Shown: positions 37,812 through 48,019 of the stretch, piece after piece
Numbering within the stretch: position 1 is the stretch's first letter
How the letters are laid out: each line of letters opens with the position of its first letter
Assembly (NCBI RefSeq): GCF_016865255.1
Contig: NZ_CP033381.1
Span: 2,604,001-2,668,000, forward strand
DNA: 64,000 nt
Reading direction: 5' to 3'
From: Methylomonas sp. LW13
Lineage (GTDB): Bacteria; Pseudomonadota; Gammaproteobacteria; Methylococcales; Methylomonadaceae
The notes under the pieces: generated by a model
What the model was told of the DNA's origin: nothing
The model's input: the letters and a program-made list of their open reading frames with translations, nothing else
Database searches by the model: none
Position numbers and translations under genes: made by a program

Positions 37812-38137
37812 AATCCGCCCCAGCTTAAATTCGATTGACTCGTCTACCTAAAACTCGCTGCATCCTATTCTGTTTCATAGACGGCGAGCATCATTGCTAC
37901 GAATTGTATCAATTTGCTTCGCTGGTGCACCTAAATGAAATATTGCCATTATCCGGCAGGTTTACACCTGGCAAAATGCCTATCCAGCCACCGGGAAGCT
38001 CATATCGGCCCGGCCAATCCTACATCGCAGACCCGCGACCTTAGCAATACCGCTAATTCTTCCGCATGTCTCGGCGAGCCTCCCCATTCCGGTGCGCACC
38101 ACGCATGTGCAAAAAAAGCACTTCCGAATCAATAGAG
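37812..38137. other. Upstream part of the nrt/nas control region
   Basis: About 325 bases with no supported gene. It includes the palindrome GTGC-A7-GCAC at 38107-38121, next to the NtrC-like site. It presumably holds the promoter of the divergent 180-residue gene. Confidence 0.4.
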
Positions 38138-38154
38138 TGCATGATTTTTCTGCA
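38138..38154. promoter_or_regulatory. NtrC-type enhancer site (predicted)
   Basis: TGCATGATTTTTCTGCA matches the dyad spacing TGC-N11-GCA of NtrC sites (17 bases). Its centre lies about 140 bases upstream of the predicted nrt start, a normal enhancer distance. Only one half-site pair is strong, so confidence is moderate. Confidence 0.5.
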
Positions 38155-38262
38155 TGCCAAGATGCACCCGCAAATTTCTCTAAAAACAGACTCACCAAAA
38201 ATAGGTGTAACACACTGTTTATAATGGTTTTTTACATATAGTTATCACAAGAGTCATTAAAC

Positions 38263-38279
38263 TGGCATCAGCATTGCTT
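38263..38279 (+). promoter_or_regulatory. Sigma-54 promoter of the nrt-nas operon (predicted)
   Basis: TGGCATCAGCATTGCTT has the invariant GG (38264-38265) and GC (38276-38277) separated by exactly ten bases, with the flanking TGGCA and TTGCT of the consensus. Transcription should begin near 38289, only a few bases before the first leader hairpin. Expression under nitrogen limitation through NtrC is the expected consequence. Confidence 0.75.
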
Positions 38280-38291
38280 AGTAAGCAGCAA

Positions 38292-38338
38292 TACTCCAGT
38301 GTAGGAGTGGTAAACCCAAACCCCGCTCACTGTTGAGC
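38292..38338 (+). ncRNA. ANTAR-type tandem-hairpin leader of the nrt-nas operon
   Basis: Hairpin 1 pairs ACTCC (38293-38297) with GGAGT (38304-38308) around the hexaloop AGTGTA. Hairpin 2 pairs GCTC (38325-38328) with GAGC (38335-38338) around the hexaloop ACTGTT. Both loops have six bases with A at position 1 and G at position 4, the known recognition rule for ANTAR antiterminators. The pair is followed by an intrinsic terminator, as in NasR- and NasT-controlled leaders. The regulator itself is not in this window. Confidence 0.78.
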
Positions 38339-38347
38339 ACTAAAGAC

Positions 38348-38401
38348 AAAGGCGTCTACTGTCAGGCTTGCAAACAAGTCGGACATAGACGCCTTTTTTT
38401 T
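38348..38401 (+). terminator. Leader terminator before nrtA
   Basis: A perfect 11-base stem, AAAGGCGTCTA (38348-38358) and TAGACGCCTTT (38386-38396), runs into eight T. It lies between the ANTAR hairpins and the nrtA start, so it should stop transcription unless an antiterminator binds upstream. Confidence 0.9.
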
Positions 38402-38432
38402 GGCCCGTTTTTCTCAATTGACAGGAACCGAC

Positions 38433-39827
38433 ATGAAACAGAACCGCATTTTCACCCCGAAGACACTTGCCGCCGCTTTCAGCTCGGTGGTTGCGCTGGG
38501 CATATTAGGCTTTTCCAACCACAGCTTCGCCGCCGGGAAACTGGAAAAAGAAGATTTGAAGTTCGGTTTTATCAAATTGACCGACATGGCCCCGCTGGCG
38601 GTGGCTGCGGAAAAAGGTTTTTTTGAAGAGGAAGGCCTGTTTGTGCAACTGGAAGCACAAGCCAATTGGAAAGTGGTGATGGACCGGGTTGTGAACGGCG
38701 AGCTGGACGGTTCGCACATGCTGGCGCCGGCACCGTTAGCGGCCAGCATCGGCTTCGGCACCAAGGCCGACATCGTGACTGCCTTCAGCATGGGCTTCAA
38801 CGGCAATGCCATCACCGTATCCAACGACATCTGGAAACAAATGAAAGCCAATGTGCCAATGGAGGGCGGCAAACCGGTGCATCCGATTAAGGCTGATTAT
38901 CTGAAACCGGTAGTGGACAAATATAAAGCCGAAGGCAAGCCATTCAATATGGCGATGACTTTTCCGGCCGGTTCCCACAACCTGAAACTGCGCTATTGGC
39001 TGGCGGCTGGCGGCATTAATCCCGGCTACTATGCGCCACCGCAAGACATTTCCGGCCAGATCAGCGCCGATGCTTTGTTGTCGGTCACGCCGCCGCCGCA
39101 AATGCCGGCGACGCTGGAATCCGGCACCATCTTCGGCTATTGCGTCGGCGAGCCGTGGAACCAGCAAGCGGTATTTAAAGGCATCGGTGTGCCGGTGATC
39201 ACCGACGAGGAATTGTGGAAAGACACTCCGGAAAAAGTGTTCGGCGTGACCAGCTCTTGGGCCGAGAAATATCCCAACACCTATCTGGCAGTCACTAAAG
39301 CCTTGATCCGCGCTTCGATCTGGCTGGATGCCGAGAGCAACAAAAACCGTAAGGAAGCGATTGAAATGTTGTCGCAAAAACAATATGTGGGCGCCGACGT
39401 TGAAGTACTGGCGGCCAGCATGAACGGCACCTTTGAATACGAAAAAGGCGACAAACGCTCCCTGCCCGACTTCAACACCTTCTTCCGTCACGGCGCCAGC
39501 TATCCCTCTTACAGCAGTGCGGTTTGGTACCTGACGCAATTACGGCGCTGGGGCATGATCGCCGAGCAAAAACCGGATAACTGGTATCTCGACACCGCGA
39601 AAAAAGTTTATCGCCCCGATATCTATTTGGCTGCGGCGAAAGAATTGGTGGCCGAGGGTAAAGCCAAAGCGGAAGATTTTCCGGCCGACACCGGCATCAA
39701 GCCTTCACAAAACTTTTTCATCGACAAAATTCCGTTCGATGCCAACAAACCTAACGATTATCTAGCCAAATTTCCGATTGGCTTGAAAGGCAAACAAACC
39801 GTCTCCGGCGGCAAGATTGTCGACTAA
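38433..39827 (+). CDS. nrtA: Nitrate ABC transporter, periplasmic substrate-binding protein
   Basis: A 464-residue NrtA-type binding protein. ATG 38433 has AGGA upstream and starts a Sec signal peptide (FSSVVALGILGFSNHSFAA). The mature part begins GKLEKEDLKFGFIKLTDMAPL, as in NrtA/NasF. Further family blocks are HMLAPAPLAASIG, FPAGSHNLKLRYWLAAGGI, PPPQMPATLESGTI and GYCVGEPWNQQA. It binds nitrate (possibly nitrite) in the periplasm for NrtB and the double ATPase. It is the first gene behind the attenuated leader. Confidence 0.95.
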   Translation: MKQNRIFTPKTLAAAFSSVVALGILGFSNHSFAAGKLEKEDLKFGFIKLTDMAPLAVAAEKGFFEEEGLFVQLEAQANWKVVMDRVVNGELDGSHMLAPAPLAASIGFGTKADIVTAFSMGFNGNAITVSNDIWKQMKANVPMEGGKPVHPIKADYLKPVVDKYKAEGKPFNMAMTFPAGSHNLKLRYWLAAGGINPGYYAPPQDISGQISADALLSVTPPPQMPATLESGTIFGYCVGEPWNQQAVFKGIGVPVITDEELWKDTPEKVFGVTSSWAEKYPNTYLAVTKALIRASIWLDAESNKNRKEAIEMLSQKQYVGADVEVLAASMNGTFEYEKGDKRSLPDFNTFFRHGASYPSYSSAVWYLTQLRRWGMIAEQKPDNWYLDTAKKVYRPDIYLAAAKELVAEGKAKAEDFPADTGIKPSQNFFIDKIPFDANKPNDYLAKFPIGLKGKQTVSGGKIVD

Positions 39828-39918
39828 GAAACTCTGGTGGGTGCTCTACACAAGGATCGTATGTTGATGCATGGACGCATCCTTTTTACCGACACCATTA
39901 AGACAAGCGAGCAAAGAC

Positions 39919-40932
39919 ATGACTAATACATTGATCAAATTTTTCAACATCACCGGCCTGACTTGGTTCGTACCCTTGGTCAAAATCGCCGCTGGCGAAA
40001 ACCCTGCCCAACAAATGCGTCAATTATGGCTGGTCATGGGCGTCCCCATCATCGCTTTCATCTTGTTTTTAGGATTTTGGAGCGTCACTGCCGCACGCAT
40101 CAACACCAGTTTGGGCGCCATTCCCGGCCCGGTCGCGGTATGGTCGGAAGTCAGCGGCTTGGTGACCGAACACTATGCGGAAAAAACCAAAATGGCCGAG
40201 TTTTACGAACGCCAGGAATTACGGAATAAAGAAAAACTGGCCGAAGACCCCAAAGCGGAAATCAAGCCCCGCCCCTACACCGGCAAACCGACTTATCTGG
40301 ACCAAATATTTACCAGCCTGCGCACCGTATTCGCCGGCTTTATCATCGCTACGCTGATTGCCGTGCCTCTAGGTATCATCTGCGGCATGAGTCCGGTGTT
40401 GAATACCGCGTTTAACCCTTTGATTCAAATCTTCAAACCGGTATCGCCGCTAGCCTGGTTGCCCATCGTCACCTTGGTGGTGAGCGCCATCTATGTCACT
40501 GACGACGATTCCTGGTTCGCCAAATCGTTCGTCACCTCGGCCATCACCGTGACTTTATGCTCTTTATGGCCAACGCTGATCAACACCGCCGTGGGTGTGT
40601 CATCGATAGACCGCGACCTGGTCAACGTCGGCAAAGTGTTAAGACTGGATTGGGCCACGCAGATCAAACGCATCATTCTGCCTTCGGCATTGCCTTATAT
40701 CTTTACCGGGATGCGCCTATCCTTGGGCGTGGGCTGGATGGTTTTGATCGCCGCCGAGATGCTGGCGCAAAACCCAGGACTGGGCAAATTCGTCTGGGAT
40801 GAATTCCAAAACGGCAGTTCCAATTCCTTGAGCAGGATCATGGTGGCGGTATTTACCATCGGTATTATCGGCTTCATTCTCGACCGGGTAATGCACTCGT
40901 TACAAAACCTGTTCTCGTTCCAAAAAATCTGA
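39919..40932 (+). CDS. nrtB: Nitrate ABC transporter permease
   Basis: A permease of about 337 residues with six membrane segments in the C-terminal half and the loop typical of the NitT/TauT family ([22 protein letters not shown]). ATG 39919 ([14 protein letters not shown]) is preferred; an in-frame ATG at 39871 would add 16 residues. An unusually long charged stretch (residues about 90-130, [20 protein letters not shown]) lies between helix 1 and the transport core. The stop overlaps the ribosome site of the next gene. Confidence 0.93.
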
Positions 40933-40942
40933 GGATGCCGTC

Positions 40943-42703
40943 ATGAGCGCCGCCCAAGCCAAAATCATCGAACTTTCCATGCACAAACAATCCGCTATGT
41001 CTTCCGTTCCCGCCAACGATGCGTATAAGCCGCTAGTAGAGTTAAAAAATGTCTGTAAATCCTACGGAGAAGGCAAAGACAAAACCTCCATCCTCAGAGA
41101 CATTAATCTGGATATTCGCGAAGGCGAGTTTATCGCCATTGTCGGTTTTTCCGGCAGCGGCAAAACGACCTTGGTATCGATGATTGCGGGTTTAATCCAT
41201 GCCGACAGCGGCGAACTATTGAAACAAGGCCAGCCCATCACCGAACCCGGCCCGGATCGCGGCGTGGTGTTTCAAAACTATTCCTTGATGCCCTGGCTAA
41301 CCGTTTACGAAAACGTGGCGCTGGCGGTAGATGCGATCTTTAAGGACTGGACGCCGGAACAACGCCGCGCGCATACCGAGAAGTACGTCAAAATGGTGAA
41401 CCTCGGCCGGGCGATGGACAAAAAACCCGCCGAGTTGTCAGGCGGTATGCGCCAGCGTGTTAACGTGGCCCGGGCGCTGGCCGCCAACCCGGATATTTTG
41501 CTGCTGGACGAACCGCTCAGCGCCCTGGATGCGTTGACCCGCGGCAACTTGCAAGACGAAATTCTGCAAATTTGGGAACAGGATAAAAAGACTGTCATCT
41601 TGATTACCAACGACGTCGATGAAGCCATTTACATGGCCGACCGGGTCATTCCACTCAATCCCGGCCCGGATGCCAGCTTTGGCCCGTCCTTTACGGTCAA
41701 CCTGGAGCGGCCGCGCGACCGCACCGCTTTAAACCATAACGATGAATTCAAACGCCTGCGCGCGGAAATCACCCGCTATTTGATGAATATCGGCATGGAA
41801 AAAGCCCAAGCCGACGCTGGCGACAAGCTCAAGCTACCGGATGTCCGCCCCAATACCAGTAACGACTGGAAGCTGGATACCTCGGCGCTAAAACCCAGCG
41901 CCCGCGATCTGGGCAAGGCCCGCTATCTGGAATTCTCCAATCTGTCCAAAATCTACCCTACCCCGGACGGCAACAGTACCGTGAAAGTGGTGGACGGCTT
42001 CGATTTAAAAATGAAGAAAGGCGAATTCATTTCCATCATCGGCCACTCCGGTTGCGGGAAATCCACGGTGTTGTCGATGACCGCCGGCCTGAACGAAATA
42101 TCCGAAGGCGGCATTATTTTGGATAACCGGGAAATCAGCGGCGCCGGTCCGGATCGCGGCGTGGTGTTTCAGGCTCCTAGCCTGTTTCCCTGGCTGACCG
42201 CCTTCGAAAACGTGATGCTGGGCGTGGATAAAGTCTACCCACATGCCTCGCAAGACGAACGCGAGGACATCGTCGAATACTACCTGACCCGGGTCGGTCT
42301 GGCCGATGCGATGTTTAAAAAAGCCGGGGACATGTCCAACGGCATGCGCCAGCGCGTCGGTATTGCCCGCGCCTTTGCCTTGTCGCCCAAATTACTGCTA
42401 CTGGACGAACCGTTCGGTATGCTGGATTCGTTGACCCGCTGGGAATTGCAGGAAGTATTGATGGAAGTCTGGGAACGCACCCACGTCACCGCGATCGTCG
42501 TGACGCACGATGTCGACGAAGCCATTCTATTGGCTGACAGAGTGGTGATGATGACCAACGGCCCGCACGCCAAAATCGGCAAAATTCAAGAAATCGACCT
42601 GCCTCGGCCGCGTACTCGCAAGGCCCTGCTGGAGCATCCGGATTACTACAAGTACCGGGAGAGCTTGCTGACCTTCCTGTCCGAATGCGATCACACCCAT
42701 TAA
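40943..42703 (+). CDS. Nitrate ABC transporter, fused double ATPase (NrtC/NrtD-like)
   Basis: A 586-residue protein with two ATPase domains in one chain. The first has Walker [10 protein letters not shown], signature [15 protein letters not shown] and Walker [13 protein letters not shown], but its switch histidine is replaced: [10 protein letters not shown] has Asn where THD is normal. The second has GHSGCGKST, a variant signature [27 protein letters not shown] and a normal VTHDVDEA. One composite site is therefore probably degenerate. It powers nitrate uptake with NrtA and NrtB. GAGG lies eight bases before ATG 40943. Confidence 0.93.
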
Positions 42704-42734: not shown

Positions 42735-44027
42735 ATGCCGCAAACACTCAAACGTCCAACCGGCACGTTACCGGCGACACTATTATCACTCACCTTCTTC
42801 AGCCTGCCGGCCGCCGCCGACATTACCAAAGAGGTGGAAGACGCCTTGAATTTCTACCATTACGGCAGCAACGGCGCAGTAAAAATGGATTTGAATTACC
42901 GCTGGGAGAATGTCGATAAAGACAACTCTGTTCGTAAACCCGCCAATATGGGCGGCCAGCCGGTGGAAACCGCCAACGCCAATACGGTGCGCCTGCGGCT
43001 GGGTTTCCTGACGCCGGTTTTTCACGATTTCCAAGGTTACGCGGAATACGAAGGCCTCTACGCGGCGCAAGCCGACTACGACCGCGGCGGTACTACCTCG
43101 AACCGTGACCGCAACTATGCCGTCATTGCCGATCCGGCCCGCAACGAGCTGAATCAATTCTGGATCAGCTACAAAGGCATCGCCGACACCCTGATCAAAG
43201 TCGGCCGGCAACGCATCAAATTGGACGACGACCGCTTCATCGGTAACGTCGGCTGGCGGCAGATGGAAATGACCTATGATTCGATTCTGATCACCCACAA
43301 TAATCAGACCTTGTTCGGGCTGACAGCAAACGTCGGCTATATCGACCACATCCAAAACATATTCGGCGAAACGCATTCGATAAACGCGCCGTTTTTAAAC
43401 CTGAATTACAAGATTAATGACTGGGGCAACCTGATCGGTTATGGATACTGGCTGGATTACCGCGAACGCGCTAACTACGCTAACTCCTCGCAAACCTACG
43501 GCTTGCGCTTCGACGGCAAATCGCCGCAGTTTTTTGACACTGTCAATGCCATCTACACGGCCGAATGGAGCAAACAATCGGACTACGGCGACAACCCCAA
43601 CCACTACCAGGCCGACCGCTTCAATCTGATGGCGGGGGCCAGTGCTTACAACCTGACCGTATCAGGTGCCGTGGAGCAGCTAAACGGCTACGGAGCCGGC
43701 AAATCTTTCCAAACCCCGCTGGGCACCAATCACGCTTTCCAGGGGTGGGCGGATTTATTTTTGACTACACCGGCTAATGGTATCCGCGACGTCTTCGCCA
43801 CCGCCAGCTACAAAGCGATGAACGACAGCTTGATCATTACCGGCGTCTATCACGACTTTAAAGACGATACCGGCAAAATTGAATACGGTAAGGAATGGGA
43901 TTTTCAGGCCCTGAAAAAGTTTGGCAAACATTACTCGCTGTTAGCCAAGTACGCGAACTTTAACAGTGATAACCCGGCGTTCCCGGACACCCAAGTGATT
44001 TGGATGCAAGGCAACGTCAGCTTCTAG
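42735..44027 (+). CDS. Outer-membrane beta-barrel (alginate-export/porin-like)
   Basis: A 430-residue protein with a signal peptide (LLSLTFFSLPAAADI), alternating amphipathic strands rich in Tyr and Asn, and a C-terminal aromatic strand ending in Phe (VIWMQGNVSF), the recognition signal for outer-membrane assembly. Blocks such as MDLNYRWENVDKDN and KVGRQRIKLDDDRFIGNVGWRQ resemble the alginate-export barrel family. Its place between transporter and reductase genes suggests that it passes nitrate across the outer membrane. AGGGGG precedes ATG 42735. Confidence 0.82.
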   Translation: MPQTLKRPTGTLPATLLSLTFFSLPAAADITKEVEDALNFYHYGSNGAVKMDLNYRWENVDKDNSVRKPANMGGQPVETANANTVRLRLGFLTPVFHDFQGYAEYEGLYAAQADYDRGGTTSNRDRNYAVIADPARNELNQFWISYKGIADTLIKVGRQRIKLDDDRFIGNVGWRQMEMTYDSILITHNNQTLFGLTANVGYIDHIQNIFGETHSINAPFLNLNYKINDWGNLIGYGYWLDYRERANYANSSQTYGLRFDGKSPQFFDTVNAIYTAEWSKQSDYGDNPNHYQADRFNLMAGASAYNLTVSGAVEQLNGYGAGKSFQTPLGTNHAFQGWADLFLTTPANGIRDVFATASYKAMNDSLIITGVYHDFKDDTGKIEYGKEWDFQALKKFGKHYSLLAKYANFNSDNPAFPDTQVIWMQGNVSF

Positions 44028-44104: not shown

Positions 44105-45328
44105 ATGAAACTCAAATTGGTAGTGATAGGCAATGGCATGGCCGGCATGCGCACCGTTGACGAATTGATTCAAACCGTACCGGATCGCTACGACATTACC
44201 GTGTTCGGCGCCGAGCCGCACGGCAACTACAATCGCATCATGCTGACACCGGTGTTGTTCGGCGCCAAAAGCGTTGCCGACATCATGATTCACGATTTCG
44301 ATTGGTATCTAAAAAACCGCGTGACCTTGTATTGCGGACCGGACAAAGCGGTTGTCGATGTGGATCGCGAACGCCGCTGTGTCATCGCCCACGACGGCAC
44401 CTGTGCGTTTTACGACAAACTGTTGATCGCCACCGGTTCCTTGCCGCTGATGCTGGACATACCGGGCCGCGACGTCGAAGGCGTATTGGGCTTTAGAGAC
44501 ATCGCCGACGTGGAAACCATGATCGAAAAATCCGCCAGCAAACGCCATGCGGTCATTCTGGGCGGCGGTTTACTGGGTCTGGAAGCCGCCAACGGCTTAT
44601 TGCAACGCGGTATGCAAGTCAGCGTCATCAACCGTGCCGACCATTTGTTGAACCGGCAATTGGATGGTAAAGCTGCGGCGTTTTTACAACGGCAATTGGC
44701 GGATAAAGGCATTCAATTTCATCTGGGTACCACCATCCAACGCATAGACAGTCAGGACGGGCATATCAGCGCGGTGACTTTAAGTAACGGCAGTGTTTTA
44801 CCGGCCGACATGCTGATCATGTCCACCGGTATCAAACCCAATATCAGTCTGGCGAAACGCATTGGCCTGGCGTGTCAGCACGGCATCGTAGTCGACGACG
44901 GCATGCAGACTAGCGACCCGGCGATATTCTCGGTCGGCGAATGCGTGCAGCATCGGGGCGAACTGTTCGGTTTGGTCGCGCCGGTCTACGAACAAGCCAA
45001 AGTCTGCGCCCAACAACTGGCGGGTAAAGTCGACAGCCAATTTAAAACCTTATCGTCCGCCACCATGCTGAAAGTCACAGGCATCGATTTATTCTCGGTA
45101 GGCGATTTCGAAGGCGACAGCGAATGCCAGATTTTGCAGTTGATTGACCACGGCCTGGGCATCTATAAAAAAATCGTCCTGCGCGGCGACGTCGTCGTCG
45201 GCGTTATTTTGTACGGGGATACCAGCGACAGTGCCTGGTATCTGAATTTGGTTAAAGAAAGCACGCCGATTGCCGCGATCCGCGACCGCTTGATGTTCGG
45301 CAGAATCCCGCTCGCGCGCGCGGCTTAA
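44105..45328 (+). CDS. nasB: Assimilatory nitrate reductase electron-transfer subunit (FAD/NAD(P)H oxidoreductase)
   Basis: A 407-residue flavoprotein corresponding to the N-terminal half of NirB-type nitrite reductases. ATG 44105 places the FAD-binding Rossmann motif right at the start (LVVIGNGMAGMRTVDEL). A second nucleotide motif for NAD(P)H is AVILGGGLLGLEAANGL, and the FAD block DPAIFSVGECVQHRG is present. It lacks the sirohaem and [2Fe-2S] domains of NirB, so it should feed electrons to NasA rather than reduce nitrite. The gene symbol follows usage for such subunits and varies between species. Confidence 0.85.
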   Translation: MKLKLVVIGNGMAGMRTVDELIQTVPDRYDITVFGAEPHGNYNRIMLTPVLFGAKSVADIMIHDFDWYLKNRVTLYCGPDKAVVDVDRERRCVIAHDGTCAFYDKLLIATGSLPLMLDIPGRDVEGVLGFRDIADVETMIEKSASKRHAVILGGGLLGLEAANGLLQRGMQVSVINRADHLLNRQLDGKAAAFLQRQLADKGIQFHLGTTIQRIDSQDGHISAVTLSNGSVLPADMLIMSTGIKPNISLAKRIGLACQHGIVVDDGMQTSDPAIFSVGECVQHRGELFGLVAPVYEQAKVCAQQLAGKVDSQFKTLSSATMLKVTGIDLFSVGDFEGDSECQILQLIDHGLGIYKKIVLRGDVVVGVILYGDTSDSAWYLNLVKESTPIAAIRDRLMFGRIPLARAA

Positions 45329-45340
45329 ATTCCTTTACCC

Positions 45341-48019
45341 ATGAACACCATCAAAACCACTTGTCCTTATTGCGGCGTCGGCTGCGGCATCGAAGCCACG
45401 ATAGAAGACCACGCGACACACCGGGTCTGTATCAAAGGCGACAGTAAGCACCCGGCCAATTTCGGCAGACTTTGCTCCAAAGGCGCGACGCTGGGCGATA
45501 CCGTGTCGCTGGAAAATCGCCTGCTCTACCCCAGCATTCAAGGGAAACAAGTCGATTGGGCGTCAGCTTTAGATCATGTCGCGGAACGCTTCAATAACAT
45601 TATTGCGCAGCACGGCCCCGAAGCGGTGGCGTTTTATGTCTCAGGCCAATTGCTGACCGAGGATTACTACGTCGCTAACAAATTGATGAAAGGCTTCATC
45701 GGCACCGCTAATATCGATACCAATTCCCGTTTGTGCATGTCCTCGGCGGTAGTGGGCTACAAACGCGCATTCGGCGCCGATACCGTGCCTTGCAATTACG
45801 AAGACCTGGAACTGGCCGAATTGATTTTACTGGTCGGCTCCAATGCCGCCTGGTGCCACCCGATTGCCTTTCAACGCATTCGCAAGGCTAAGGAAACCAA
45901 TCCCCATTTAAAAATCGTGGTGATCGATCCGCGCAGCACGGCCAGTTGCGACATCGCCGATTTGCATCTGCCCGTTAAACCGGGCATGGATGCGCTATTG
46001 TTCAACGGCATTTTGGCTTATTTAGCGCAAAACGGCCGGATCGATCAGACTTATATAGACACGCATACCGAAGGTTTCGAGGCCGCATTGCAAGAAGCTG
46101 TGAAAACCGCCGGCAGTATCGAGCAGGTCGCCGCAGGCTGTGGCTTGCCTAGCGAAGCAGTCGCCACACTGTTCGACTGGTTTGCCGGCACCGAGAAAAC
46201 CGTCACGGTCTATTCGCAAGGCATCAACCAATCCAGCTCAGGTTCGGATAAATGCAACGCTATCATCAACTGCCACCTCGCCAGCGGCCGCATCGGCAAG
46301 CCGGGTATGGGACCGTTCTCGTTTACCGGCCAACCCAACGCGATGGGCGGCCGTGAAGTGGGCGGTTTAGCCAACACCTTGGCTGCGCATATGGACCTGG
46401 AAAACCCGGAACACGTCGATAGAGTCGGCCGCTTTTGGGGCAGTGACAAAGTCGCCGACAAACAAGGTTTGAAGGCCGTGGCCATGTTCGACGCCATTGC
46501 CGCCGGTCAAATCAAGGCCGTATGGATCATGGCGACCAATCCGGTCGTATCGATGCCCGACGCCGACAAAGTGAAACGTGCTCTGCAGCAATGCGAATTG
46601 GTGGTGGTTTCCGATTGCATCGCCAACACCGATACCGCCAAGTTAGCCCATGTGCTGCTGCCGGCCACCGGCTGGAGCGAGAAAGACGGCACCGTCACCA
46701 ATCTGGAGCGGCGCATCTCTCGACAACGGCCCTTGTTTCCGGCCTCCGGCGAAGCCAAACACGACTGGTGGATCATCAGCCAAGTCGCGCAACGCATGGG
46801 TTTTAGCGATGCGTTTAATTACCAATCCAGCGCCGATATTTTTCGTGAACACGCCGCGCTGTCGGCCTTCGAAAACGATGACGAGCATCAGTTACGCGAT
46901 TTTAATTTATCGGCCTTTGTCCACTTGGATGGGCAAGGTTATGACGCGCTGCAACCGGTGCAATGGCCGGTCACCAACGAGCAAACCGCAGGCATAGCCA
47001 GAATGTTTACTGACGGCCAGTACTACACAAGCAATCGTAAAGCCCGCTTCATCCCGATTACCCCGCGTCCGCCGGTTAATGCGCCGGATAGCGATTATCC
47101 GTTTACGCTGAATACCGGCCGCCTGCGCGACCAATGGCACACGATGACCCGCACCAGTCTGGCCGCCAAATTAAACGCGCACCGCCCGGAACCTTTCGTC
47201 GAGATACACCCCGCCGACGCTGAACGCCTCGGCTTAAGCGCGCGCAGTCTGGCGCAGATAGAAAGCCGTTGGGGCAGTATGCTGGCCCGCGTCGATCTCA
47301 ATCCGGGGCAACAAATCGGCAGTCTGTTCGTCCCTATGCACTGGACCGAACAACTCAGCAGCCACGGCCGCATGGGTGCCGTGGTCAATCCGGTGGTCGA
47401 TCCCTATTCCGGGCAACCGGAAAGCAAGCAAACACCGGCCACAATCCATGCCTGGCCGGCACGTTGGTATGCCACTATTTTGTCGCGCCGTCCCTTGCAA
47501 ATTAGCGGGGCCGAGTATCAAGTCAGTGTGCGCGGCGACCGCTATTTTCGTTACGAGTTAGCGTCTACTAAACCCGGCGAGGACTGGCGGGCCTGGAGCC
47601 GCGCGCTGCTCGCTGACACAAGACATATTGATGATGATAACTGCTGGCTGGAATACAGCGACCAACAAGCCGGCTATTACCGTACCGCTTATTTACCGGA
47701 TCGCGAATTACAAGCCTGTTTGTTCGTCGGACCGGATTGCGAGCTGCCCGAGCCTGGCTGGCTGGGCAGTTTATTCGCTAAAAATGAGTTGAGCCGAGCC
47801 GAGCGCCTGAGCTTGCTGAGCGGACTGCCGCCAAAAGGTGAAGCCGATATTGGCCGAATCGTCTGTTCGTGTTTCAATGTGGGCGAAAAAGCCATCCGAC
47901 ACGCGGTACAAACCCAGCAACTGCAAAGCGTCGCCGACATCAGCGCCTGTTTGAGCGCCGGTAGCGGTTGCGGTTCCTGCGTCGCGGAGTTGAAGGAGTT
48001 TTTACCCAAACCCAGTTAA
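45341..48019 (+). CDS. nasA: Assimilatory nitrate reductase catalytic subunit
   Basis: An 892-residue molybdopterin oxidoreductase reducing nitrate to nitrite in the cytoplasm. The N-terminal [4Fe-4S] cysteines are in CPYCGVGCGIEA and GRLCSKGATLG. Molybdopterin-domain blocks include TNSRLCMSSAVVGYKRAFG, GMGPFSFTGQPNAMGGREVGG and LNTGRLRDQWHTMTRT. The C-terminal 50 residues form a BFD-like [2Fe-2S] domain (IVCSCFNVGEKAI ... GSGCGSCVAEL), as in Klebsiella NasA. Nitrite reductase genes are not in the window. Confidence 0.96.
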   Translation: MNTIKTTCPYCGVGCGIEATIEDHATHRVCIKGDSKHPANFGRLCSKGATLGDTVSLENRLLYPSIQGKQVDWASALDHVAERFNNIIAQHGPEAVAFYVSGQLLTEDYYVANKLMKGFIGTANIDTNSRLCMSSAVVGYKRAFGADTVPCNYEDLELAELILLVGSNAAWCHPIAFQRIRKAKETNPHLKIVVIDPRSTASCDIADLHLPVKPGMDALLFNGILAYLAQNGRIDQTYIDTHTEGFEAALQEAVKTAGSIEQVAAGCGLPSEAVATLFDWFAGTEKTVTVYSQGINQSSSGSDKCNAIINCHLASGRIGKPGMGPFSFTGQPNAMGGREVGGLANTLAAHMDLENPEHVDRVGRFWGSDKVADKQGLKAVAMFDAIAAGQIKAVWIMATNPVVSMPDADKVKRALQQCELVVVSDCIANTDTAKLAHVLLPATGWSEKDGTVTNLERRISRQRPLFPASGEAKHDWWIISQVAQRMGFSDAFNYQSSADIFREHAALSAFENDDEHQLRDFNLSAFVHLDGQGYDALQPVQWPVTNEQTAGIARMFTDGQYYTSNRKARFIPITPRPPVNAPDSDYPFTLNTGRLRDQWHTMTRTSLAAKLNAHRPEPFVEIHPADAERLGLSARSLAQIESRWGSMLARVDLNPGQQIGSLFVPMHWTEQLSSHGRMGAVVNPVVDPYSGQPESKQTPATIHAWPARWYATILSRRPLQISGAEYQVSVRGDRYFRYELASTKPGEDWRAWSRALLADTRHIDDDNCWLEYSDQQAGYYRTAYLPDRELQACLFVGPDCELPEPGWLGSLFAKNELSRAERLSLLSGLPPKGEADIGRIVCSCFNVGEKAIRHAVQTQQLQSVADISACLSAGSGCGSCVAELKEFLPKPS

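Follow-up and report, generated by a model that had tools for sequence, protein, structure and literature searches.

A sigma-54 promoter and a three-hairpin ANTAR-type attenuator form a putative two-stage switch before nrtA in Methylomonas sp. LW13

Introduction

Is the nitrate operon of Methylomonas sp. LW13 controlled twice by the DNA in front of nrtA, once where transcription starts and again in the leader RNA? The original prediction proposed an AND gate at this site, in which nitrogen shortage and nitrate are both required. Combined control of Pseudomonas nirBD by NtrC/sigma-54 and NasT was reportedly described by Romeo et al. in 2012. NasR-type proteins, in which a NIT domain is fused to ANTAR, are nitrate-sensing antiterminators of the Klebsiella kind. 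In the published ANTAR model, as outlined in the cited passages, the second hairpin occupies the 5′ base of the terminator, so that only one of the two structures can form at a time (PMC3369931). The account of Pseudomonas nirBD describes a start at an NtrC/sigma-54 promoter followed by NasT antitermination in the NalA leader (PMC12830290). NasS is described as keeping NasT inactive until it binds nitrate (PMC3795266; PMC12830290).

Results

The operon and its promoter region

The window is the whole 64,000-nucleotide stretch of DNA analysed, and the genome holding it is a single contig of 5.23 Mb with a completeness of 100. Methylomonas species are among the closest named NrtA relatives in the best 80 of 518 loci kept (91 and 94% identity), which fits the methanotroph host that had been supposed. 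All genes of the operon lie on the + strand. The nrtA gene for the substrate-binding protein of a nitrate ABC transporter (38433-39827; PF13379, E 1.1e-96) has its ATG at 38433 and is followed by genes for an nrtB-like permease (39871-40932; best NCBIfam match ntrB, 160.7 bits, below the cut-off of 209) and an nrtCD-like ATP-binding protein with two ABC stretches (40943-42703; TIGR01184, 603 bits, above the cut-off). The open reading frame at 42735-44027, placed between the transporter and reductase genes, gave no NCBIfam match and perhaps encodes an outer-membrane porin. The next gene encodes a NirB-like FAD/NAD reductase protein (44105-45328; TIGR02374, E 1.1e-119, over profile positions 1-390 of 794 and below the cut-off); its start at 44105 was picked by us, the listed reading frame beginning at 44000. 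The last gene encodes a molybdopterin oxidoreductase (45341-48019; NF047855, E 2.3e-140, below the cut-off), a probable assimilatory nitrate reductase, for which the formate dehydrogenase profile TIGR01591 scored slightly higher, also below its cut-off.

As originally predicted, an exact GG-N10-GC sigma-54 promoter, TGGCATCAGCATTGC, is present at 38263-38277 on the + strand (GG at 38264-38265, GC at 38276-38277). The same element, written as TGGC-N9-GC, occurs in 27/27 sequences of the close set, a count made without a shuffle control. This set consists of the window and 26 loci (L006-L031) from the best 80 of the 518 NrtA loci; 23 of the 26 carry Methylococcales-type labels, and L006, L014 and L023 are labelled just as proteobacterium or Gammaproteobacteria. 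A search of 37812-38440 gave no sigma-70-like promoter.

Upstream DNA was compared with TGCACN7GTGCA, which we take to be the consensus of the NtrC-type dyad. The NtrC-like dyad first noted (38138-38154, + strand) is a putative site with 8/10 matches, and a better putative dyad, CGCACCACGCATGTGCA with 9/10, lies outside the interval first considered, at 38095-38111 on the same strand. Since matches with two mismatches or fewer are below chance across the whole window (11 found vs. 36 expected), the dyads rest on their position and on the relatives. Within 220 bases upstream, the best dyad reaches at least 9/10 in 10 of the 27 sequences, the window included (0.18 expected), and at least 8/10 in 21 of the 27 (2.1 expected). 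Motif discovery in the close set also gave a conserved AT-rich motif, ATAACnnATTGTATTTAT (38207-38224, + strand), beginning 52-57 bases 5′ of the sigma-54 site in 22/27 sequences; its log-likelihood was 125.7 vs. 56.4-64.8 in eight shuffled sets run with fewer restarts and iterations. In the motif and dyad tally, the row for L023 was measured from a misassigned sigma-54 site. Because the motif has the NtrC-like site on one side and the promoter on the other, and partly resembles what is presumably the IHF consensus, it suggests a candidate IHF site.

Hairpins, terminator and fold of the leader

Two hairpins with A1/G4 six-base loops had been predicted, and both were read directly on the + strand and recognised in relatives: P0, ACTCC[AGTGTA]GGAGT, at 38293-38308, and P1, GCTC[ACTGTT]GAGC, at 38325-38338. 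The sigma-54 site ends at 38277 and P0 begins at 38293, and the predicted placement of a sigma-54 start just 5′ of the first hairpin is supported. The perfect 11-bp stem of an intrinsic terminator was also present as described, pairing 38348-38358 with 38386-38396 and running into eight T at 38394-38401 (whole element 38348-38401, + strand). A simple terminator scan of the window did not list this terminator, the stem of which is long and interrupted. A third hairpin had been overlooked, namely P2, AGAC[AAAGGC]GTCT, at 38344-38357 on the + strand, which is supported by direct reading, relatives and fold. As P2 and the 5′ side of the terminator stem have 38348-38357 in common, the two structures are mutually exclusive. 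The attenuator is therefore of the predicted ANTAR type, but P0 and P1 are not the hairpin and terminator pair; P2 is the exclusive partner, and it is the element that makes the leader a switch. The features by which we recognise an ANTAR leader occur together here: three A1/G4 hexaloop hairpins, a P2 that overlaps and excludes the terminator, and one ANTAR protein in the genome. The linker between P1 and P2 is 5 nt in the window and 2-5 nt in the 21 sequences with a detected P1; several relatives are thus shorter than the 5-12 nt of eut leaders, a range in which the window falls. A fourth candidate inside the terminator, GTCT[ACTGTC]AGGC, was seen in the window only and was dropped.

The computed fold of the full leader (38289-38401), proposed earlier as a check, has an energy of -43.6 kcal/mol and a z score of -5.25, with 0/200 shuffles as good, and the stretch 38344-38401 folded alone gave a z score of -7.39. 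When the transcript is cut at 38357 (69 nt), P0, P1 and P2 form together with -16.4 kcal/mol, a fold that is unexceptional by itself (z -1.48, 18/200 shuffles as good). In the full-length transcript P0 and P1 stay and the terminator takes the place of P2. The computed fold also closes the P1 loop further by an A1-U6 pair, leaving four unpaired bases.

Conservation of the leader

P2 was found in 24 of the 27 close leaders. L014, L022 and L027 have the sigma-54 site without P2, which suggests that some relatives can dispense with the attenuator; the distance from promoter to estimated gene start is ~70 bases in L014 and L027, in place of ~160-175. These three loci offer natural comparisons for the role of the attenuator and were left out of the hairpin counts, which cover the 24 P2-bearing leaders, window included, with expectations from 300 dinucleotide-shuffled sets. 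With A or G allowed at loop position 1, P1 is present in 23/24 leaders (0.30 expected) and all three hairpins in 22/24 (0.02 expected); with A alone, the counts are 21/24 for P1 and 19/24 for P0 with P1 (0.19 and 0.01 expected). The P2 loop is AAAGGC in 23/24 leaders and AATGGC in L023. By the rule used, L018 has neither P0 nor P1 and keeps P2 and the terminator, and L008 has no P0. G stands at loop position 1 of P1 in L006 and L008, and of P0 in L011 and L023.

Covariation was measured on a MAFFT alignment that was not fitted to structure, with the structure taken from the window row, which is thereby favoured over slid versions. For the antiterminator structure of three hairpins, 92.9% of the alignment cells are paired vs. 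86.7% in shuffles, and 26 cells carry double changes vs. 10.3; for pairing, double-change cells and covariation score alike, 0/500 shuffles were as high. The terminator structure has 90.8% of cells paired and 25 double-change cells vs. 11.6, again with 0/500 shuffles as high. Two other measures were not above the shuffles: in the antiterminator, five pairs have at least one double change (103/500 shuffles as high) and 16 further pair types occur (236/500), and the corresponding terminator values were reached by 95/500 and 488/500 shuffles. Conservation of the loops in relatives, which the original prediction had made a point of proof, is hence borne out.

These counts bear directly on the notion that an ordinary terminator happens to stand beside chance hairpins and that expression begins elsewhere. 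Terminators are indeed frequent, and chance alone can produce short hairpins with loops of six bases; a genome-wide search for the pattern AAAGGC...GCCTTTTT gave six matches vs. ten for a backwards-read control and so was not above chance. Three of the six include a 4-bp hairpin around AAAGGC, namely the nrtA leader, the nirBD leader and one antisense copy, with a G-U pair, inside a 352-aa open reading frame; the first two are notable through their context only. Against coincidence stand the triple arrays in 22/24 leaders, the covariation of the hairpins, the sigma-54 site in every close sequence and the failure to find a sigma-70-like promoter around the leader, and we hold this explanation to be hardly credible.

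We also looked at wider Gammaproteobacteria with looser rules, by which some matches overlap and counts have no shuffle control; L045 and L063, with little upstream DNA, were excluded. A P2-like hairpin was seen in 24 of the 52 loci with sufficient upstream DNA, 20 of the 24 having at least one upstream hexaloop hairpin and nine having two or more. Triple hexaloop arrays may thus exist outside the close set.

Regulators encoded in the genome

The genome encodes one ANTAR protein (E 6.8e-18), as the prediction demanded. It is of the NasT type, with a receiver (PF00072) and an ANTAR domain (PF03861), both above cut-offs. A NasR-type NIT-ANTAR fusion was not found in this genome, the sole ANTAR protein being without a NIT match. 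As a separate observation, a genome of another genus of the family (G093) encodes such a NIT-ANTAR protein (L096:409-1671; PF08376 E 5.6e-43, PF03861 E 1.8e-19) besides its other ANTAR genes. The genome also has genes for NtrC (732 bits) and for RpoN (493 bits), both above cut-offs, and together with the sigma-54 site they fit the predicted nitrogen half of the AND gate.

The nitrate half fared differently. The search for nasT and nasS elsewhere in the genome recovered the former, ~117 kb from nrtA, and not the latter: NasS was found neither with PF13379 nor with a profile of seven NasS-like proteins encoded beside nasT in other bacteria, the identity of which we infer from position and similarity. 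Besides NrtA, PF13379 detected an SsuA-like protein and, weakly, two pieces of one large open reading frame; with the seven-sequence profile, NrtA scored 365 bits and a piece of the SsuA-like protein 23 bits. At locus L087, a 331-aa open reading frame followed by a permease-like one was rejected as NasS, with 77.7 bits to PF13379, 23 bits to the NasS profile and a likeness to SsuA/TauA by our reading. Among 121 genomes of the family, the profile exceeds 500 bits beside nasT in G014, G041 and G064 and finds fragments, likewise beside nasT, in G082, these 4/121 genomes all belonging to one genus (g14). In the other family genomes no match is above 390 bits, and matches up to that score are taken, as a group and by score and length, to be NrtA. 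Because NasS was not found, a response of the leader to nitrate is no more than a prediction.

The nasT gene stands directly behind narK and divergent from nirBD. The two reading frames overlap by four bases if nasT starts at TTG and are separated by two bases if it starts at the ATG two codons on; the name NarK follows TIGR00886 (309.5 bits, just below the cut-off of 311.7). nasT follows a narK-like gene in 8/8 genomes of the genus and in the three genomes each of genera g6 and g11 that were examined, where narK was named by likeness. As we read the alignment, the phospho-acceptor column holds Asn (VVLNLYAP) in the NasT studied here and Asp or Glu in NasT proteins encoded beside NasS.

Such traits could mean that NasT is always active. 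The attenuator would then be no nitrate switch, and either NtrC/sigma-54 would be the sole real control or NasT would answer another signal, for example c-di-GMP as in Pseudomonas putida. That NasS was not found, that Asn occupies the acceptor column and that nasT sits directly behind narK all speak for this possibility, as does the effect of c-di-GMP on NasT reported in the cited passages of PMC12830290. A terminator kept in many genera is nevertheless hard to explain if the antiterminator is always on, and an overlooked sensor is equally possible; we regard this explanation as unlikely.

The nirBD leader and the terminated transcript

The nirBD leader (L002:7775-7895) contains a sigma-54-like site, TGGCATAAATTTTGT, a P2 hairpin, GGAC[AAAGGC]GTCC, and a terminator, and P2 with terminator recurs in 7/7 other genomes of the genus fetched (L171-L177). 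By eye, no A1/G4 hairpin precedes P2 in these eight leaders (L002, L171-L177). In place of the expected A1/G4 hexaloop they show a loop such as CGTCGTT, and a standard P2 and terminator come next.

Searches of Rfam gave P11, STnc40 and narK, all far below their cut-offs, and were kept as leads only. P11, which we take to be the same RNA as NalA, matched the nrtA leader with 22.4 bits (E 0.017), far below the gathering cut-off of 70; a P11 search of the whole genome listed the nirBD leader (24.6 bits) and not the nrtA leader. In our reading of its alignment, the P11 consensus has a sigma-54-like stretch, a hairpin with an AuaGAA loop and then GAC-AAAGGC-GUC on the terminator.

Termination leaves P0 and P1, which lie outside the terminator, folded, and the short transcript might therefore itself be the product, either titrating NasT through its free hexaloops, as a sponge like EutX RNA, or acting as a small RNA. 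In favour, single hexaloops are described as binding EutV, and EutX has been proposed to sequester EutV, according to the cited passages (PMC8934654); the best weak Rfam match, too, is a Pseudomonas sRNA, P11. That match is far below the family cut-off, however, and nirBD is the sole other candidate NasT target seen in the genome. We consider a role for the terminated transcript improbable.

A GAF-repeat protein linked to nasT in other genera

Seven of the 26 close loci carry, upstream of nrtA, both nasT (a fragment in L029) and a gene encoding a ~307-aa GAF protein; in L026 this second gene runs on the other strand. ANTAR was found in 69/121 family genomes. A profile search found the GAF protein in 38 of the 121, representing 14/29 genera, and all 38 also have ANTAR (Fisher p 2e-12, relatedness ignored). 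In 29 of the 38 genomes (11 genera) the GAF gene directly follows nasT on the same strand, 37-79 bases past the ANTAR domain; L028:1520-2455 is an example linked to nasT. The profile that found these 38 genomes gave no match in the genome of the window or in seven other members of its genus drawn, and thus supports absence, for which the single-protein query alone was insufficient. For the nitrate half of the AND gate, neither NasS nor the GAF protein was thus found in this genome. In the wider class, full-length GAF relatives were found in 4/369 genomes, none in the order of the window, and a NasT gene lies just upstream in one of these four loci (L151-L154), namely L154; repeating the NasT search with every open reading frame of at least 60 aa gave the same answer.

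The best of five predicted structures, made with seven sequences in the input, has a mean pLDDT of 81.8 (range of the five models 40.1-81.8) and by the order of its elements would be read as three GAF-like repeats. Among the Foldseek matches listed, tandem GAF proteins rank first, and NreA appears at ranks 25 (mutated, 6k2h) and 44 (nitrate-bound, 4iuk), amid many GAF proteins. Comparison of the GAF profile with the sequences of solved structures gave weak matches only (best E 0.0011, NLH1) and no NreA. Pfam GAF_NLP detected L028 with 26.4 bits (cut-off 24.1) and did not list L030 and L154. The sources describe NreA as a nitrate-binding GAF protein and NLP7 as a proposed plant nitrate sensor, the latter doubted by one review. 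By analogy with these two, the GAF protein is a candidate nitrate receptor, and we put this forward as a hypothesis.

Discussion

We consider it highly probable that the leader before nrtA switches the operon for nitrate transport and reduction in two stages, combining an NtrC/sigma-54 start with NasT antitermination. This reading is based on the elements seen in the sequence, on how they are conserved and covary, on the exclusive fold and on the genes for NasT, NtrC and RpoN. When nitrogen is short, NtrC bound ~110-170 bp upstream would activate the sigma-54 polymerase at 38263-38277, probably with the aid of a protein that bends the DNA at the AT-rich motif, and transcription would start near 38289. 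P0, P1 and P2 would then fold one after another in the nascent RNA. By default, the emerging downstream strand would undo P2, form the terminator and end transcription at ~38401. Active NasT, by the binding and signal supposed here, would hold P2 through the A1/G4 hexaloops and let the polymerase read into nrtA. P0 may serve as an extra landing site that raises the local occupancy of NasT ahead of P2.

The AND-gate idea is not new, as NtrC/sigma-54 together with NasT has already been described for Pseudomonas nirBD. The nrtA leader resembles the Pseudomonas NalA leader in its sigma-54 promoter and predicted NasT antitermination, but precedes nrtA and not nirBD, and NasS, which is part of the Pseudomonas system, was not found here. 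With the ANTAR dual-hexaloop antiterminators (EutV/eutP, NasR/nasF and AmiR), as presented in the cited passages of PMC3369931, it shares tandem A1/G4 hairpins, the second over the terminator, and a short linker; it differs by the third hexaloop hairpin upstream, P0, seen in 22/24 close leaders. In the cited passages of PMC8934654, ANTAR RNA elements are described as dual hexaloops only. The Paracoccus NasS-NasT system, so far as its cited account goes, likewise has a receiver-ANTAR NasT, an attenuated nas leader and involvement of NtrC (PMC5424462), unlike which the genome studied here yielded no NasS and has nasT behind narK, ~117 kb from nrtA, and not before nasA. With its three hairpins, and with no NasS found, the nrtA leader is a variant of a known switch. 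Among titles and abstract starts of openly licensed papers, we found none on NasT with GAF or on ANTAR/NasT in methanotrophs, which says little.

For the family as a whole, we tentatively suggest, as possible rather than probable, that NasT of Methylomonadaceae has been rewired to new inputs. NasS would have been lost nearly family-wide; the GAF protein might have become the nitrate receptor in 14/29 genera, directly behind nasT in 11 of them; in Methylomonas and two further genera nasT would have come to lie behind narK with neither partner; and, at the level of the RNA, the triple hexaloop array would belong to the same change. How NasT senses nitrate without NasS is the question that this raises, and the nasT-linked GAF protein is a testable candidate in other genera. 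The conserved three-hairpin leader is suited to testing the model in which ANTAR proteins act on one hexaloop at a time. The two-stage switch would extend NtrC/sigma-54 and ANTAR control of nitrate use to the methanotrophs, organisms in which the methane and nitrogen cycles are linked.
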